Shown here piece after piece: positions 22,750-26,933 of a DNA stretch of 64,000 nt. The position numbers were made by a program, and so were the translations under genes. The DNA is from Gammaproteobacteria bacterium (GTDB lineage Bacteria > Pseudomonadota > Gammaproteobacteria > Chromatiales > Chromatiaceae), in NCBI GenBank assembly GCA_020445335.1, contig JAGRGU010000067.1, forward strand, positions 11,247-75,246, read 5' to 3'. Within the stretch, counting starts at the first letter, position 1. The number at the start of each line of letters is the position of its first letter. The notes under the pieces were generated by a model. The model was given only the letters and a program-made list of their open reading frames with translations, ran no database searches and was not told the origin of the DNA.

Positions 22750-24573
22750 ATGTCCGTCCACTCAATCGCGTCCGCCTCACTGGTGCTCTACAAACAGTCG
22801 CCGGCCAAGGTGGTCGGCATTGCCGACAAGGTCGAGATAGAGCTCGAGGGCGGCAAACGTAAACGGGTGCGCTTCAAGGACATCGCGCTGCTGCATCCCG
22901 GGCCCGTGACGACGCTGCCGCCGGCCGAGCCAGCGGGGGGCGAACTGGAGGAGGCCTGGGAGCTGTTGGCAGAGGAGCGGTGCGATCTGGAGGAGCTGGC
23001 AGGGTTGATTTACGGCGAGTTCACACCGACAACCGCCTGGGCCAGCTGGCAGCGGGTGGCGGAAGGGCTCTATTTCGAGGGTGACAGCGAGCGGATAAGC
23101 GCCCGCAGCAGGACGCAGATCGAAGCCGATATCGCGGCCAGAGAAGCGAAGGAGAGGGCGGAGCGGGAGGAGCGGGAGTTCTATCAGCGCCTGCAGCAGG
23201 GCCAGCTGGAAGCGGTGGATCACCTCCGTCTGCGCGAGGTGGAACAGTTGGCACTGGGACAGAGCACCAGAAGCCGGATCCTGGCGACACTGGGCCATGC
23301 CGAGACGGAGGTGAATGCGCACCGCACGCTGGTCGAGGTCGGCTACTGGCCCACGACCGTAAACCCCTGGCCCGGGCGTCTGGCGTTGCCGCTGGCGGAC
23401 CCGGACGCCGCGCTGCCGCAACTTGCCGACGAAGCGCGCACCGATCTCACGCACCTGCAGAGTTTCGCCATCGACGATGCCGGCAGTATGGACCCCGACG
23501 ATGCCATCAGCCTGGATGGCGACCGGATATGGGTACACGTTGCCGATGTAGCGGCGCTGGTCCCGCCCGACTCCGCGATCGATATCGAGGCACGCGCCCG
23601 GGCCGCGAATCTTTACCTGCCAGAGCGCATCGTACATATGTTGCCGGCGGCGTTGACGCCAGCGCTCGCGCTTGGTCTGACGCAGCGCTCGCCGGCGCTG
23701 TCGTTCGGCTTCCGTCTCTCGGAGCGGGCTGAGCCGGTCGATCTGCAGGTAATACCCAGCTGGATCTCGGTCCGACGCAGCACCTACAGGGAAGCCAACG
23801 AAGCGATCGGGCGCGAGCCGTTGGCGACGCTGAAACGGCTCGCCGAGCGCTACCAGGCGCGGCGCAGGGCGCAGGGTGCGATCAATCTCGACCTGCCCGA
23901 GGCCAGCATCAAAGTGAGTGCCGACGGCGAAATTGCGATCCGGCCTCTGGAGAACCTGCAGAGTCGTGCGCTGGTGACCGAGTTGATGCTGATGACCGGC
24001 GAGGTGGTTGCCGGCTATGCGCTGGCCAACGACATTCCCATCCCCTTTGCCTCACAGCCCCCTGCCGATGCGACTGCACCCGGCGAGGATATGGCAGCGC
24101 GTTACGCTTTCAGGCGGCTGATGAAACCCTCGCTGGCGCGGACGCTGGAGGAGCCGCATGCCGGCCTCGGGCTGGCACGCTACACCCGGGTTACCAGTCC
24201 GTTGCGGCGCTATCTCGATCTGGTGGTGCATCAGCAGCTGCGCCGCCATCTACGGGGGCAGGAGCTGCTTTCATCTGCGGCCGTGAGCGAGCGTATCGAT
24301 CTCAGCGCGCCTGCCGCGGGCAGCGTCAGGCGAGCCGAACGTCACTCCAATCTGCACTGGAAGCTGCTCTATCTGCAGAGCCGGCCGCAGTGGCGCGGCG
24401 AAGGTATAGTGGTGGAGCGACAGGAGCAGCGCGTGACGTTGATCATTCCCGATCTGGCGATGGAGGTGCGTATGCGCTACAGCGGCCCGGCGGAACCCAA
24501 CGCCCGGCTGCAACTGGCGGTCCGCGAAATCGATGTGCCGGATCAGTTGGCCCGCTTCCGTGTACTCTCCTGA
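22750..24573 (+). CDS. RNase II/VacB-family ribonuclease (RNB domain)
   Basis: Predicted 3'-5' exoribonuclease. The 607-residue protein has an RNB catalytic domain from about residue 230. The four metal-binding acidic residues of RNase II are conserved: Asp242, Asp248, Asp250 and Asp251 in IDDAGSMDPDDAISL. RYTRVTSPLRRYLDL occurs later, the family RNA-end-binding block. The first 220 residues do not look like the paired cold-shock domains of E. coli RNase II; they contain an SH3-like start and a long charged helix (about 125-160). It resembles the shorter environmental RNB proteins rather than Rnb or RNase R. It lies 94 bases upstream of the ATPase trio. Confidence 0.88.
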   Translation: MSVHSIASASLVLYKQSPAKVVGIADKVEIELEGGKRKRVRFKDIALLHPGPVTTLPPAEPAGGELEEAWELLAEERCDLEELAGLIYGEFTPTTAWASWQRVAEGLYFEGDSERISARSRTQIEADIAAREAKERAEREEREFYQRLQQGQLEAVDHLRLREVEQLALGQSTRSRILATLGHAETEVNAHRTLVEVGYWPTTVNPWPGRLALPLADPDAALPQLADEARTDLTHLQSFAIDDAGSMDPDDAISLDGDRIWVHVADVAALVPPDSAIDIEARARAANLYLPERIVHMLPAALTPALALGLTQRSPALSFGFRLSERAEPVDLQVIPSWISVRRSTYREANEAIGREPLATLKRLAERYQARRRAQGAINLDLPEASIKVSADGEIAIRPLENLQSRALVTELMLMTGEVVAGYALANDIPIPFASQPPADATAPGEDMAARYAFRRLMKPSLARTLEEPHAGLGLARYTRVTSPLRRYLDLVVHQQLRRHLRGQELLSSAAVSERIDLSAPAAGSVRRAERHSNLHWKLLYLQSRPQWRGEGIVVERQEQRVTLIIPDLAMEVRMRYSGPAEPNARLQLAVREIDVPDQLARFRVLS

Positions 24574-24667: not shown

Positions 24668-24862
24668 ATGTCAGAATCCCCAAGCGATCCCAAGTCAGCC
24701 GAACAGCTGCAGGGCTCCGCACTGGCGTTCGCCAGGTTCTGCGAAGCCGAGTTCGAGCGTCGCCGCAATGCCGGCGAATCTTTTGCCGAGGCGGACTATC
24801 GCGAAGCGATGGAGATGGTCGTGAGCAGGCTGTCGCTGCTGGAGATGGAGGGGGAGGGATGA
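24668..24862 (+). CDS. small acidic protein (64 aa) preceding the membrane ATPase
   Basis: Not a recognised family. The 64-residue product is acidic and mostly helical, with LAFARFCEAEFERRRNAGESF and a C-terminal MEMVVSRLSLLEMEGEG helix; it has no signal peptide or membrane segment. A strong ribosome site AAGGAG lies six bases upstream of ATG 24668. Its stop overlaps the ATPase ATG as ATGA. This tight coupling and clean start make it a real gene. An accessory or regulatory subunit of the ATPase is inferred from position only. Confidence 0.75.
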   Translation: MSESPSDPKSAEQLQGSALAFARFCEAEFERRRNAGESFAEADYREAMEMVVSRLSLLEMEGEG

Positions 24863-26751
24863 TCATCACCGACCTGCATGCAACCAATTTTCTCAAATAC
24901 GCCACGCTGGATCTGCCCGAGCTCCCCCAGCGGGGGGTGATTGCGATCGCCGGCGCCAACGAAGCGGGCAAGAGTTCGCTTGGCGAGATGATCTGCTTTG
25001 CGCTCTTCGGGCGCACCTATTCGCTCGACCAGACGCAGCTGGAGAAGCTGATCAGGTGGGGCGAAACGCACTGTTCGGTCAGGCTCTGTTTCCGTATCGA
25101 TGACAGCGGCCACTTCGAGGTGGCGCGTTTTCTCGATCGCGACGGTAACCAGGGAGCGCGACTCAATCGCGTTGGTGAGGAACAGCCGCTTGCCCGCGGT
25201 CGCGAAGCGGTCGCCAGCGAGATGGCGGAGCTGCTCGGCTTCGGCTATGACGAATTCATCGAGTCCTTCTATCTTGCGCAGCGGGAGATCACCACGCCGC
25301 ACCCGCACAGCCACGCGGTCAAGGCGATGGCTGGGATCACCAAGCTGGAACTCGTGACCGATCAGTACCGCGCGGAGATCGCGGAGTTCGGCCAGAGGGC
25401 CGGGGAGATGGAGCGACAGCAACAGCGCCTGTCGTCAGAGCTGTCGGCGCTGGCGATCGACCCGCTGGCGCTGCCCGAGCTGCAGGCTGAAAGTGGCGCG
25501 GCGACGGTCGAACTGGAAGCACTGGAGCTGGAGCGAGGCGAGCTGGAGCAGACCAGTCAGGCGTATCAGGCGGGTTTCCCGGAATTTCGCAGCGCGAGCG
25601 GCGCGCTTACCAGAGCCAAACTGCTGCGCTTCATACTCCTGTTGCTGGCGCTGGTTCTGGTTGCGACCTGGGCGCTGATTCACTATCAGCCGGACGCTCC
25701 TCAGAGCCTGTCGCTGCAACGGATGCTGCACGCCTGGATGCCCGCGTGGAGCCTGCAACGGCTCCCCTGGCTGCTATGGGCAGGTGCGGCGGCAGCGCTG
25801 CTGTTCCTGCTCGCCTGGATCAGGGTTGCCGCGGTGCGCAGCAGAGCTGAGAGACTGCGGGGCGTGGCCGCGGCGCTGGTGCAGAGAATGGAGGGCGTCG
25901 CCGGTCTCGGCGGCACGGCGGAGGTGCAGGCGCAAGAGGATGTTGACGAGGGAGCGCAGGTGGATGCTGTCGAGGAGATGGTCGAGAGCGAGCAGGCGCC
26001 GTCACGTTTCGCTTTCGACGACACACTGCGGGAGTTGTTGCCGCGGGTGAAGGGTTACGCGGCGGAGCCGGACGAGGTGCGCAGCTCGGTTGGCGGGCTG
26101 CTCGCCCGTCTGCACCAGCAGTCGCAGCAACTGCAAGGTCGTCACGGCGAACTGGAGCAGCAGATTCGCGACGAACGGGTACGGCTGCAGAAAGCGGAGG
26201 AACTCGACCGTATCGACGCCGACATGGCTACGAACCAGCGCGACTATCAGCGCCGGATCGAACTGCGTGAGTTGGGTCGAGAGCTGCTGACGGGCGCGGC
26301 ACGGCATCTGTCGCAGCGCTTTAATCGCGATCTTCGCGATCTGGTCGGTCGCACCCTGCCGCTGTTCACCGAGGGGCGTTACGAGCACCTGCAGATCGAT
26401 GACGACCTTACGGTGCGCGCCTTTTCCACGGAGAAGCGCGATTTCATGAATCTGGAGGAGATCTCCAGCGGCACCCAGCGGCAGATAATGCTGGCCCTGC
26501 GGCTGGCGCTCTCCGAGGAGCTGGCCAACAAGTCGGTCCGCGGCCGCCAGTTCCTCTTCCTGGACGAGCCTTTCGCCTTTTTCGACCGCCTGCGCACCGA
26601 AAGCTCCATTCGCGTGCTACCGGAGTTGAGTGACGTGATCACCCAGATCTGGGTCGTGGCACAGGAGTTTCCGCAGCAGCAGAATTTCGAGCGGATGCTG
26701 GTGTGCGAGCGCGAGCAGACCGAGTTGTCGACCTCGGAAGCGGCCGGATGA
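24859..26751 (+). CDS. membrane-anchored SbcC/RecF/YhaN-like AAA ATPase
   Basis: A 630-residue ATPase of the RecF/SMC/SbcC superfamily. The N-terminal half-site has Walker A GANEAGKSS (Lys38) and a QREITTPHPH block typical of AAA_23/27 SbcC-like proteins. The C-terminal half-site has the ABC signature SSGTQRQ (537-542) and Walker B FLFLDEP (565-571). Between them are a coiled coil (about 170-235), two transmembrane helices (about 255-275 and 303-323) and a second coiled coil (about 395-440). Two membrane helices inside the coil recall Bacillus YhaN. No SbcD/YhaO-type nuclease is adjacent. Start and stop overlap small flanking genes as ATGA. The role is probably in DNA structure processing or repair; this is inference. 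Confidence 0.85.
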   Translation: MIITDLHATNFLKYATLDLPELPQRGVIAIAGANEAGKSSLGEMICFALFGRTYSLDQTQLEKLIRWGETHCSVRLCFRIDDSGHFEVARFLDRDGNQGARLNRVGEEQPLARGREAVASEMAELLGFGYDEFIESFYLAQREITTPHPHSHAVKAMAGITKLELVTDQYRAEIAEFGQRAGEMERQQQRLSSELSALAIDPLALPELQAESGAATVELEALELERGELEQTSQAYQAGFPEFRSASGALTRAKLLRFILLLLALVLVATWALIHYQPDAPQSLSLQRMLHAWMPAWSLQRLPWLLWAGAAAALLFLLAWIRVAAVRSRAERLRGVAAALVQRMEGVAGLGGTAEVQAQEDVDEGAQVDAVEEMVESEQAPSRFAFDDTLRELLPRVKGYAAEPDEVRSSVGGLLARLHQQSQQLQGRHGELEQQIRDERVRLQKAEELDRIDADMATNQRDYQRRIELRELGRELLTGAARHLSQRFNRDLRDLVGRTLPLFTEGRYEHLQIDDDLTVRAFSTEKRDFMNLEEISSGTQRQIMLALRLALSEELANKSVRGRQFLFLDEPFAFFDRLRTESSIRVLPELSDVITQIWVVAQEFPQQQNFERMLVCEREQTELSTSEAAG

Positions 26752-26933
26752 GCGACCCCTATCGCTCCTGCTCGGTCTGTCGCTTCATGCGCAGTCTGGC
26801 CTTCAGCGCCATTGGCGCTGGCGTGGTCGGCTATGGCGCGTTGGCGCTGGGGTTTCGACAGGAGAATGCGATCATCGCCGCGTTCTTCGGCGCGCTGGGG
26901 GCGGTACTCTGGGCAGGGCGGCGTAAGGGGTGA
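26748..26933 (+). CDS. small two-helix membrane protein with a CxxC motif (61 aa)
   Basis: A 61-residue protein that starts MSDPYRSCSVCRFM, with a Cys-x-x-Cys pair at residues 8-11. Two hydrophobic helices follow (about 14-31 and 37-53), separated by GFRQEN, and a positive tail WAGRRKG ends the protein, so both ends are probably cytoplasmic. The start overlaps the ATPase stop as ATGA, which makes it part of the same translational unit. No family is recognised. It may be a membrane partner of the ATPase. Confidence 0.7.
   Translation: MSDPYRSCSVCRFMRSLAFSAIGAGVVGYGALALGFRQENAIIAAFFGALGAVLWAGRRKG

Follow-up and report, generated by a model that had tools for sequence, protein, structure and literature searches.

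What does a Rad50-like ATPase do when its coiled coil is predicted to run into the membrane, and with which of its neighbors does it work? The question is raised by three overlapping genes in a 64,000-nucleotide stretch of DNA (“the window”; contig JAGRGU010000067.1, positions 11,247 to 75,246) from a gammaproteobacterium of the family Chromatiaceae. An initial annotation read these genes as a coupled trio: a tiny acidic protein, an SbcC/YhaN-like ATPase anchored in the membrane, and a tiny CxxC membrane protein. Here, we describe which of these genes belong together, what the ATPase resembles, and a possible mechanism.

Gene layout

All genes described here are on the forward strand. The first of the three, P1 (24668..24862), encodes an acidic protein of 64 amino acids with a predicted two-helix hairpin, and is the constant genetic partner of the ATPase. 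The second (24859..26751) encodes the Rad50-like ATPase, a protein of 630 amino acids with a coiled coil and, at its center, a predicted two-helix membrane hairpin. The third, P3 (26748..26933), encodes a CxxC protein of 61 amino acids with hydrophobic segments. As first noted, the P1/ATPase and ATPase/P3 junctions are both ATGA overlaps. A strong ribosome-binding site had been assigned to the first gene only; in fact, a GGAGG word (24847..24851) also precedes the ATPase, placed inside the 3' end of P1 and spaced 7 bases from the ATG. In 75 of the 81 loci that make up our main set (see below), the ATPase start has upstream of it a purine-rich word resembling a ribosome-binding site (any of seven words of 4–6 bases). 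A promoter and terminator scan gave nothing above chance.

In the window, the P1–ATPase pair is surrounded by YgfZ-, RNB- and YbaK-type genes. The RNB-domain gene, for an RNase II-type exoribonuclease (22750..24573), ends 94 bases before P1, the position originally given for it. Its product has the domains HTH_RNase_II and RNase_II_C_S1, and scores far under the equivalog cut-offs for RNase II and RNase R. The two small proteins were described as members of no recognized family, and this is borne out: P1 has no match in Pfam, NCBIfam or PADLOC at E ≤ 1, and P3 has a single one, a Pfam line with an E-value of 0.4 that is below its cut-off.

P1 and the ATPase are a two-gene unit

P1 and the ATPase form one two-gene unit. 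Our main set of loci (n = 81) consists of the window plus 80 relatives in named genomes, chosen as the best of 229; most of the relatives are from Gammaproteobacteria or from genera including Sedimenticola and Thiodiazotropha, and a few are of no stated class. A P1 profile has a match upstream of the ATPase in all 81 loci of this set. The profile was built from 16 seed sequences, some of which come from contigs of loci that were then scanned; three further counts are independent of the choice of seeds. First, there is the count of 4-bp overlaps: the offset of the P1 stop relative to the ATPase start is +4 in 75 of the 81 loci, −2 in four, +1 in one and −76 in one. Second, a scan for P1 alone across 274 genomes of the class gives 25 matches, all within ~240 bp of an ATPase gene and none of them solitary. 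The ATPase itself is found in 27 of the 274 genomes (E ≤ 1e-30), and 25 of the 27 have P1, the exceptions being the genomes of loci L179 and L180. Third, the ATPase is patchily distributed within the family (18 of 34 genomes), and P1 is absent from 13 of 13 family genomes that lack the ATPase, all of them at least 98 percent complete; P1 is found in the control genomes G002 and G012, which have the ATPase.

A larger set of 121 loci comprises the 81, a further 20 from the class, and 20 from another class of the same phylum. Here, P1 lies no more than 250 bases upstream of the ATPase in 118 loci, with at least two classes and 117 distinct ATPases represented; three of the 118 matches are weak (L213, L221 and L230; E 5.6e-4 to 3.7e-3). 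P1 was not found at L179 and L180, which are distant, or at L215, where the contig begins 45 bases upstream. With a narrower P1 profile, 17 of the 20 loci of the other class give a match. Some loci share contigs, and identical ATPases were removed only for the set of 117 distinct sequences and for the covariation analysis. At L180, a different small reading frame, of 100 codons, ends at the ATPase start.

The pair can be missing as a pair. In G001, a genome of the same genus that is 98 percent complete, and in G017, the gene order is RNB gene, P3, YbaK-type gene; P1 and the ATPase are missing together, and both flanks are kept. At the site of the missing pair in G001, just before P3, there is a short reading frame with a ribosome-like word (L241, 7110–7178), possibly a deletion remnant.

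P3 and the RNB gene as bystanders

The initial annotation made conservation of both small genes with the ATPase a test of their partnership. This conservation is seen for P1, as described above, and not for P3, which occurs at only 14 of the 81 ATPase loci (13 of 74 among loci with at least 400 nt downstream). A single complex of P1, the ATPase and P3 would fit the ATGA overlap between the ATPase and P3 genes in the window, and it would fit the 7 genomes in which P3 adjoins the ATPase, out of 13 genomes with P3 among 55 genomes of relatives. In the other six, P3 lies on a different contig (four genomes, including G031, where a contig end truncates the ATPase) or is found without any ATPase (two genomes). 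P3 is also retained in G001 and G017, where the P1–ATPase pair is missing. We therefore consider a three-protein complex highly improbable, and judge P3 to be an independent bystander.

The RNB gene fares no better as a functional neighbor: it is present in 33 of the 34 family genomes irrespective of the ATPase, which only 18 of them have. Among the 69 loci that have enough upstream sequence or an RNB match, it lies a short way upstream of P1 in 34, and further off in two more. We place this syntenic neighbor outside the unit.

The ATPase has a Rad50-type head

Judging from its sequence and its modeled fold, the ATPase has a split ABC head of the Rad50 type, in which a coiled coil connects the N- and C-terminal halves. 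It carries motifs read as Walker A, the Q-loop, the signature and Walker B. Of 117 aligned sequences, 116 have the Walker B glutamate (Glu570) and 114 the Q-loop glutamine (Gln141). The residue that aligns with the H-loop histidine of Rad50 is Gln596, with glutamine in 116 of the 117 sequences and a gap in one. Thus, the nucleotide site first described as complete is so with regard to Walker A, the Q-loop, the signature and Walker B, and is not with regard to the H-loop, where histidine is replaced. Because of this replacement, ATP turnover may differ from that of Rad50.

In a profile search, the closest solved sequences are those of archaeal Rad50 (5f3w, E 1.6e-38); E. coli SbcC is matched with an E-value of 1.4e-4. 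The NCBIfam model Rad50_Sulf matches the ATPase at E 4.1e-19, similar to the best PADLOC E-value (see below), yet scores far under its cut-off. An AlphaFold2 model of the ATPase (mean pLDDT 88.8, pTM 0.65) aligns with Rad50 heads over 354 residues (VIA Z 31.4, rmsd 4.9), and has a Foldseek match with an E-value of 6e-16. No SMC hinge model is among the 11 Pfam families matched at E ≤ 1; the apex of the coiled coil is instead the predicted membrane hairpin.

A predicted membrane hairpin in place of the zinc hook

The predicted hairpin (25624..25836) consists of two hydrophobic segments, at residues 256–274 and 308–326, and the loop between them. Of the 81 ATPases, 74 have exactly two hydrophobic segments, six have one, and one has three. 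Among longer ATPases, of 720–800 amino acids, most have two segments positioned ~105 residues further along, and a few have one or three, by a simple measure. In the 111 of 121 sequences in which both segments could be placed, lysine and arginine together average 4.9 per 18 residues before the hairpin, 0.86 in the loop, and 3.9 after the hairpin. Since the loop is poor in lysine and arginine, both arms should be cytoplasmic. The hydrophobic segments and this charge pattern support, as a prediction, the earlier proposal that two helices within the coiled coil hold the ATPase at the membrane.

The CxxC motif of a zinc hook is absent from the window ATPase and from 113 of the 121 ATPases; in the other eight, a CxxC lies outside the membrane hairpin. 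The hairpin is predicted to occupy the place that the zinc hook has in Rad50.

Is there a nuclease?

The initial annotation noted that no SbcD-type nuclease gene is adjacent to the ATPase, and the source genome agrees: it has five Metallophos matches, none on the contig of the window. The sole SbcD-family gene among them lies 11 bp before an sbcC gene, whose product of 1083 amino acids is a full-length match to TIGR00618 (357 bits, under the cut-off of 478.5). SbcD at E ≤ 1e-20 is missing from 14 of 20 genomes with the ATPase, nine of the 14 being at least 95 percent complete. Nor does SbcD track the ATPase within the family, where it is present in 5 of 18 genomes with the ATPase and 4 of 16 without it (Fisher p = 1). 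The search would overlook a YhaO-type gene, since the one in G118 reaches 49 bits, short of the cut-off of 77.65; the 14 genomes are thus without SbcD proper, and may have a weaker phosphoesterase of the Mre11/YhaO type.

These observations bear on the reading that the ATPase is a divergent SbcC with a membrane anchor, acting in DNA repair with the SbcD of the genome or another Mre11-type nuclease. The Rad50 head, evident in both sequence and fold, and the presence of sbcD in the source genome are what this reading would predict, and a weaker phosphoesterase outside the reach of the search could serve as its nuclease. However, the one sbcD of the source genome is paired with a full-length sbcC of its own, most of the ATPase genomes have no SbcD at the threshold used, and the distribution of SbcD is indifferent to that of the ATPase. 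We regard this reading as quite unlikely, and the possibility raised in the initial annotation, that an SbcD encoded elsewhere accounts for the function, finds no support here.

Comparison with Rad50, YhaN and Lamassu

The ATPase shares with archaeal Rad50 and SbcC the split ABC head, the coiled coil, and the Walker A, Q-loop, signature and Walker B motifs, and these proteins are its best matches by sequence and by fold. It differs from them in having a membrane hairpin for the zinc hook and glutamine for the H-loop histidine, and in being adjoined by a P1 gene, with no SbcD gene beside it. It is also much shorter than SbcC (630 versus 1083 amino acids for the SbcC of the source genome).

The description of the ATPase as SbcC/YhaN-like holds for its Rad50/SbcC-type character and does not hold for a specific tie to YhaN. 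YhaN (Pfam AAA_27, PF13514) is likewise a family of Rad50-like ATPases, and is present in a Bacillus subtilis control; by contrast, PF13514 gives the window ATPase 15.9 bits, below its cut-off of 22. The YhaN family is found in 2 of 114 genomes of the class (E ≤ 1e-15). Of these, G118 has a P1-paired ATPase as well, so that a single genome carries both families. The YhaN-family piece in G118 is beside a phosphoesterase gene, is interrupted by stops, and is cut by the contig end. Unlike YhaN with YhaO, the window ATPase has no phosphoesterase gene on its contig. In Bacillus subtilis, the RNase gene yhaM presumably adjoins yhaN/yhaO.

A third family is that of the Lamassu protein LmuB and the PADLOC family mads_3, which, like the window ATPase, are Rad50/SMC-like ATPases with a short coiled coil. 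They provide its best PADLOC matches (mads_3, E 1.8e-18, 65 bits, over most of the protein; LmuB, E 1.6e-13; neither has a curated cut-off), and 9hqu and 9uxh match it by fold. These similarities raise the possibility of an anti-phage or anti-plasmid system, in which the ATPase would be a membrane-held sensor of incoming DNA, as in Rad50/SMC-like defense ATPases such as Lamassu. The patchy presence of the ATPase in the family is what such a system might show, and a position at the membrane would suit guarding against entering DNA. However, the window ATPase differs from Lamassu in its membrane hairpin and in keeping the Walker B glutamate, and none of the proteins encoded beside it in the window (P1, P3 and RNB) matches a PADLOC family at E ≤ 1, the LmuA effector and LmuC included. 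Its neighbors in the window are of YgfZ, RNB and YbaK type. Among 50,697 phage records there is no match (E ≤ 1e-5), a pattern-based scan for viral contigs also gave none, and only three plasmid records match, covering 29 percent of the query. A role in defense is unlikely on this evidence.

According to PMC10586767, Rad50 and SMC ATPases work on DNA together with a partner, either a nuclease or a kleisin; the same review presents Rad50 along with its zinc hook and with Mre11, and counts Lamassu among Rad50-like defense systems. As tested, the P1-paired ATPase family fits neither the Rad50–Mre11 nor the Lamassu description.

A possible mechanism

The reading that we prefer, at a little under even confidence, is a membrane-tethered Rad50-like complex without a nuclease of its own, in which the predicted hairpin of P1 replaces the helix-loop-helix by which Mre11 binds Rad50. 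The coiled coil would end in a hairpin of two helices spanning the inner membrane, with a short loop exposed to the periplasm, and its stalk would suspend the heads in the cytoplasm. Two heads may, as those of Rad50 do, close around two ATPs, and so grip DNA or a DNA-bound partner. With no nuclease encoded in the unit, P1 would sit in place of the helix-loop-helix of Mre11. The outcome would be an ATP-gated tether or clamp for DNA at the membrane, rather than a machine that cuts DNA. The binding of P1, the site at which it binds, DNA binding, and the cellular role are all parts that we infer.

The proposed role of P1 is an analogy. The helix-loop-helix of Mre11 binds Rad50 where the coiled coil has its base (PMC5786021). 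In the predicted fold of P1, there are helices at residues 16–35 and 41–61 (mean pLDDT 79.5), and P1 might act on the ATPase in a similar way. Comparison of the P1 profile with the SbcD of the source genome gave no signal in these 64 amino acids (probability 0.2 percent). A search of PDB sequences with P1 found no solved structure, with the best line, to cullin-3 (E 0.03), judged to be due to chance. The best hit in a fold search, with a Z of 5.3 among 53 chains, was to a designed helical protein and has no evidential value. Covariation between P1 and the ATPase (117 pairs, effective number 85) gave no signal: the top z was 6.47, as compared with 6.16 ± 0.30 in 60 within-cluster re-pairings, and the top raw value, 0.369, was less than the null maximum of 0.383. 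This null is soft because many clusters are single sequences.

Alternatively, the head might not act on DNA at all: the ATPase would be an ABC engine bound to the membrane and powering an envelope process, with P1 as a cytoplasmic regulator. A membrane hairpin with a short loop, the near-universal glutamine at the H-loop position, and the lack of SbcD (E ≤ 1e-20) in most genomes examined are all consistent with such an engine. Set against this, the nearest relatives by sequence and fold are the heads of Rad50 and SMC-type proteins, which act on DNA, and the ATPase has no permease-type Pfam domain above cut-off. We consider an envelope engine unlikely, if less so than a role in defense.

More tentatively, the clamp can be viewed as a nuclease-free membrane counterpart of Mre11–Rad50, in which a transmembrane hairpin stands for the zinc hook and a free-standing helix-loop-helix mini-protein stands for the nuclease. 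It might then be an inner-membrane, ATP-gated DNA clamp found in at least two classes of the phylum. In the literature searched (titles and the openings of abstracts), no membrane-anchored Rad50-like ATPase is described; broad classifications of ABC ATPases may already list the clade. If the proposal is true, the clamp has been separated from the cutter, in a membrane-tied family whose only partner has 64 residues. The two genes would then offer a compact system in which to study the control of a Rad50 head, and the way in which DNA may be held at the bacterial membrane.

Gene neighbors in relatives

Apart from P1, P3 and the RNB gene, the neighbors of the ATPase in relatives were judged by eye. 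At the loci from the other class (L213–L232), genes frequently seen, as read from translations, are one for a PstS-like phosphate-binding protein after the ATPase and an ATP-grasp-like one before P1.
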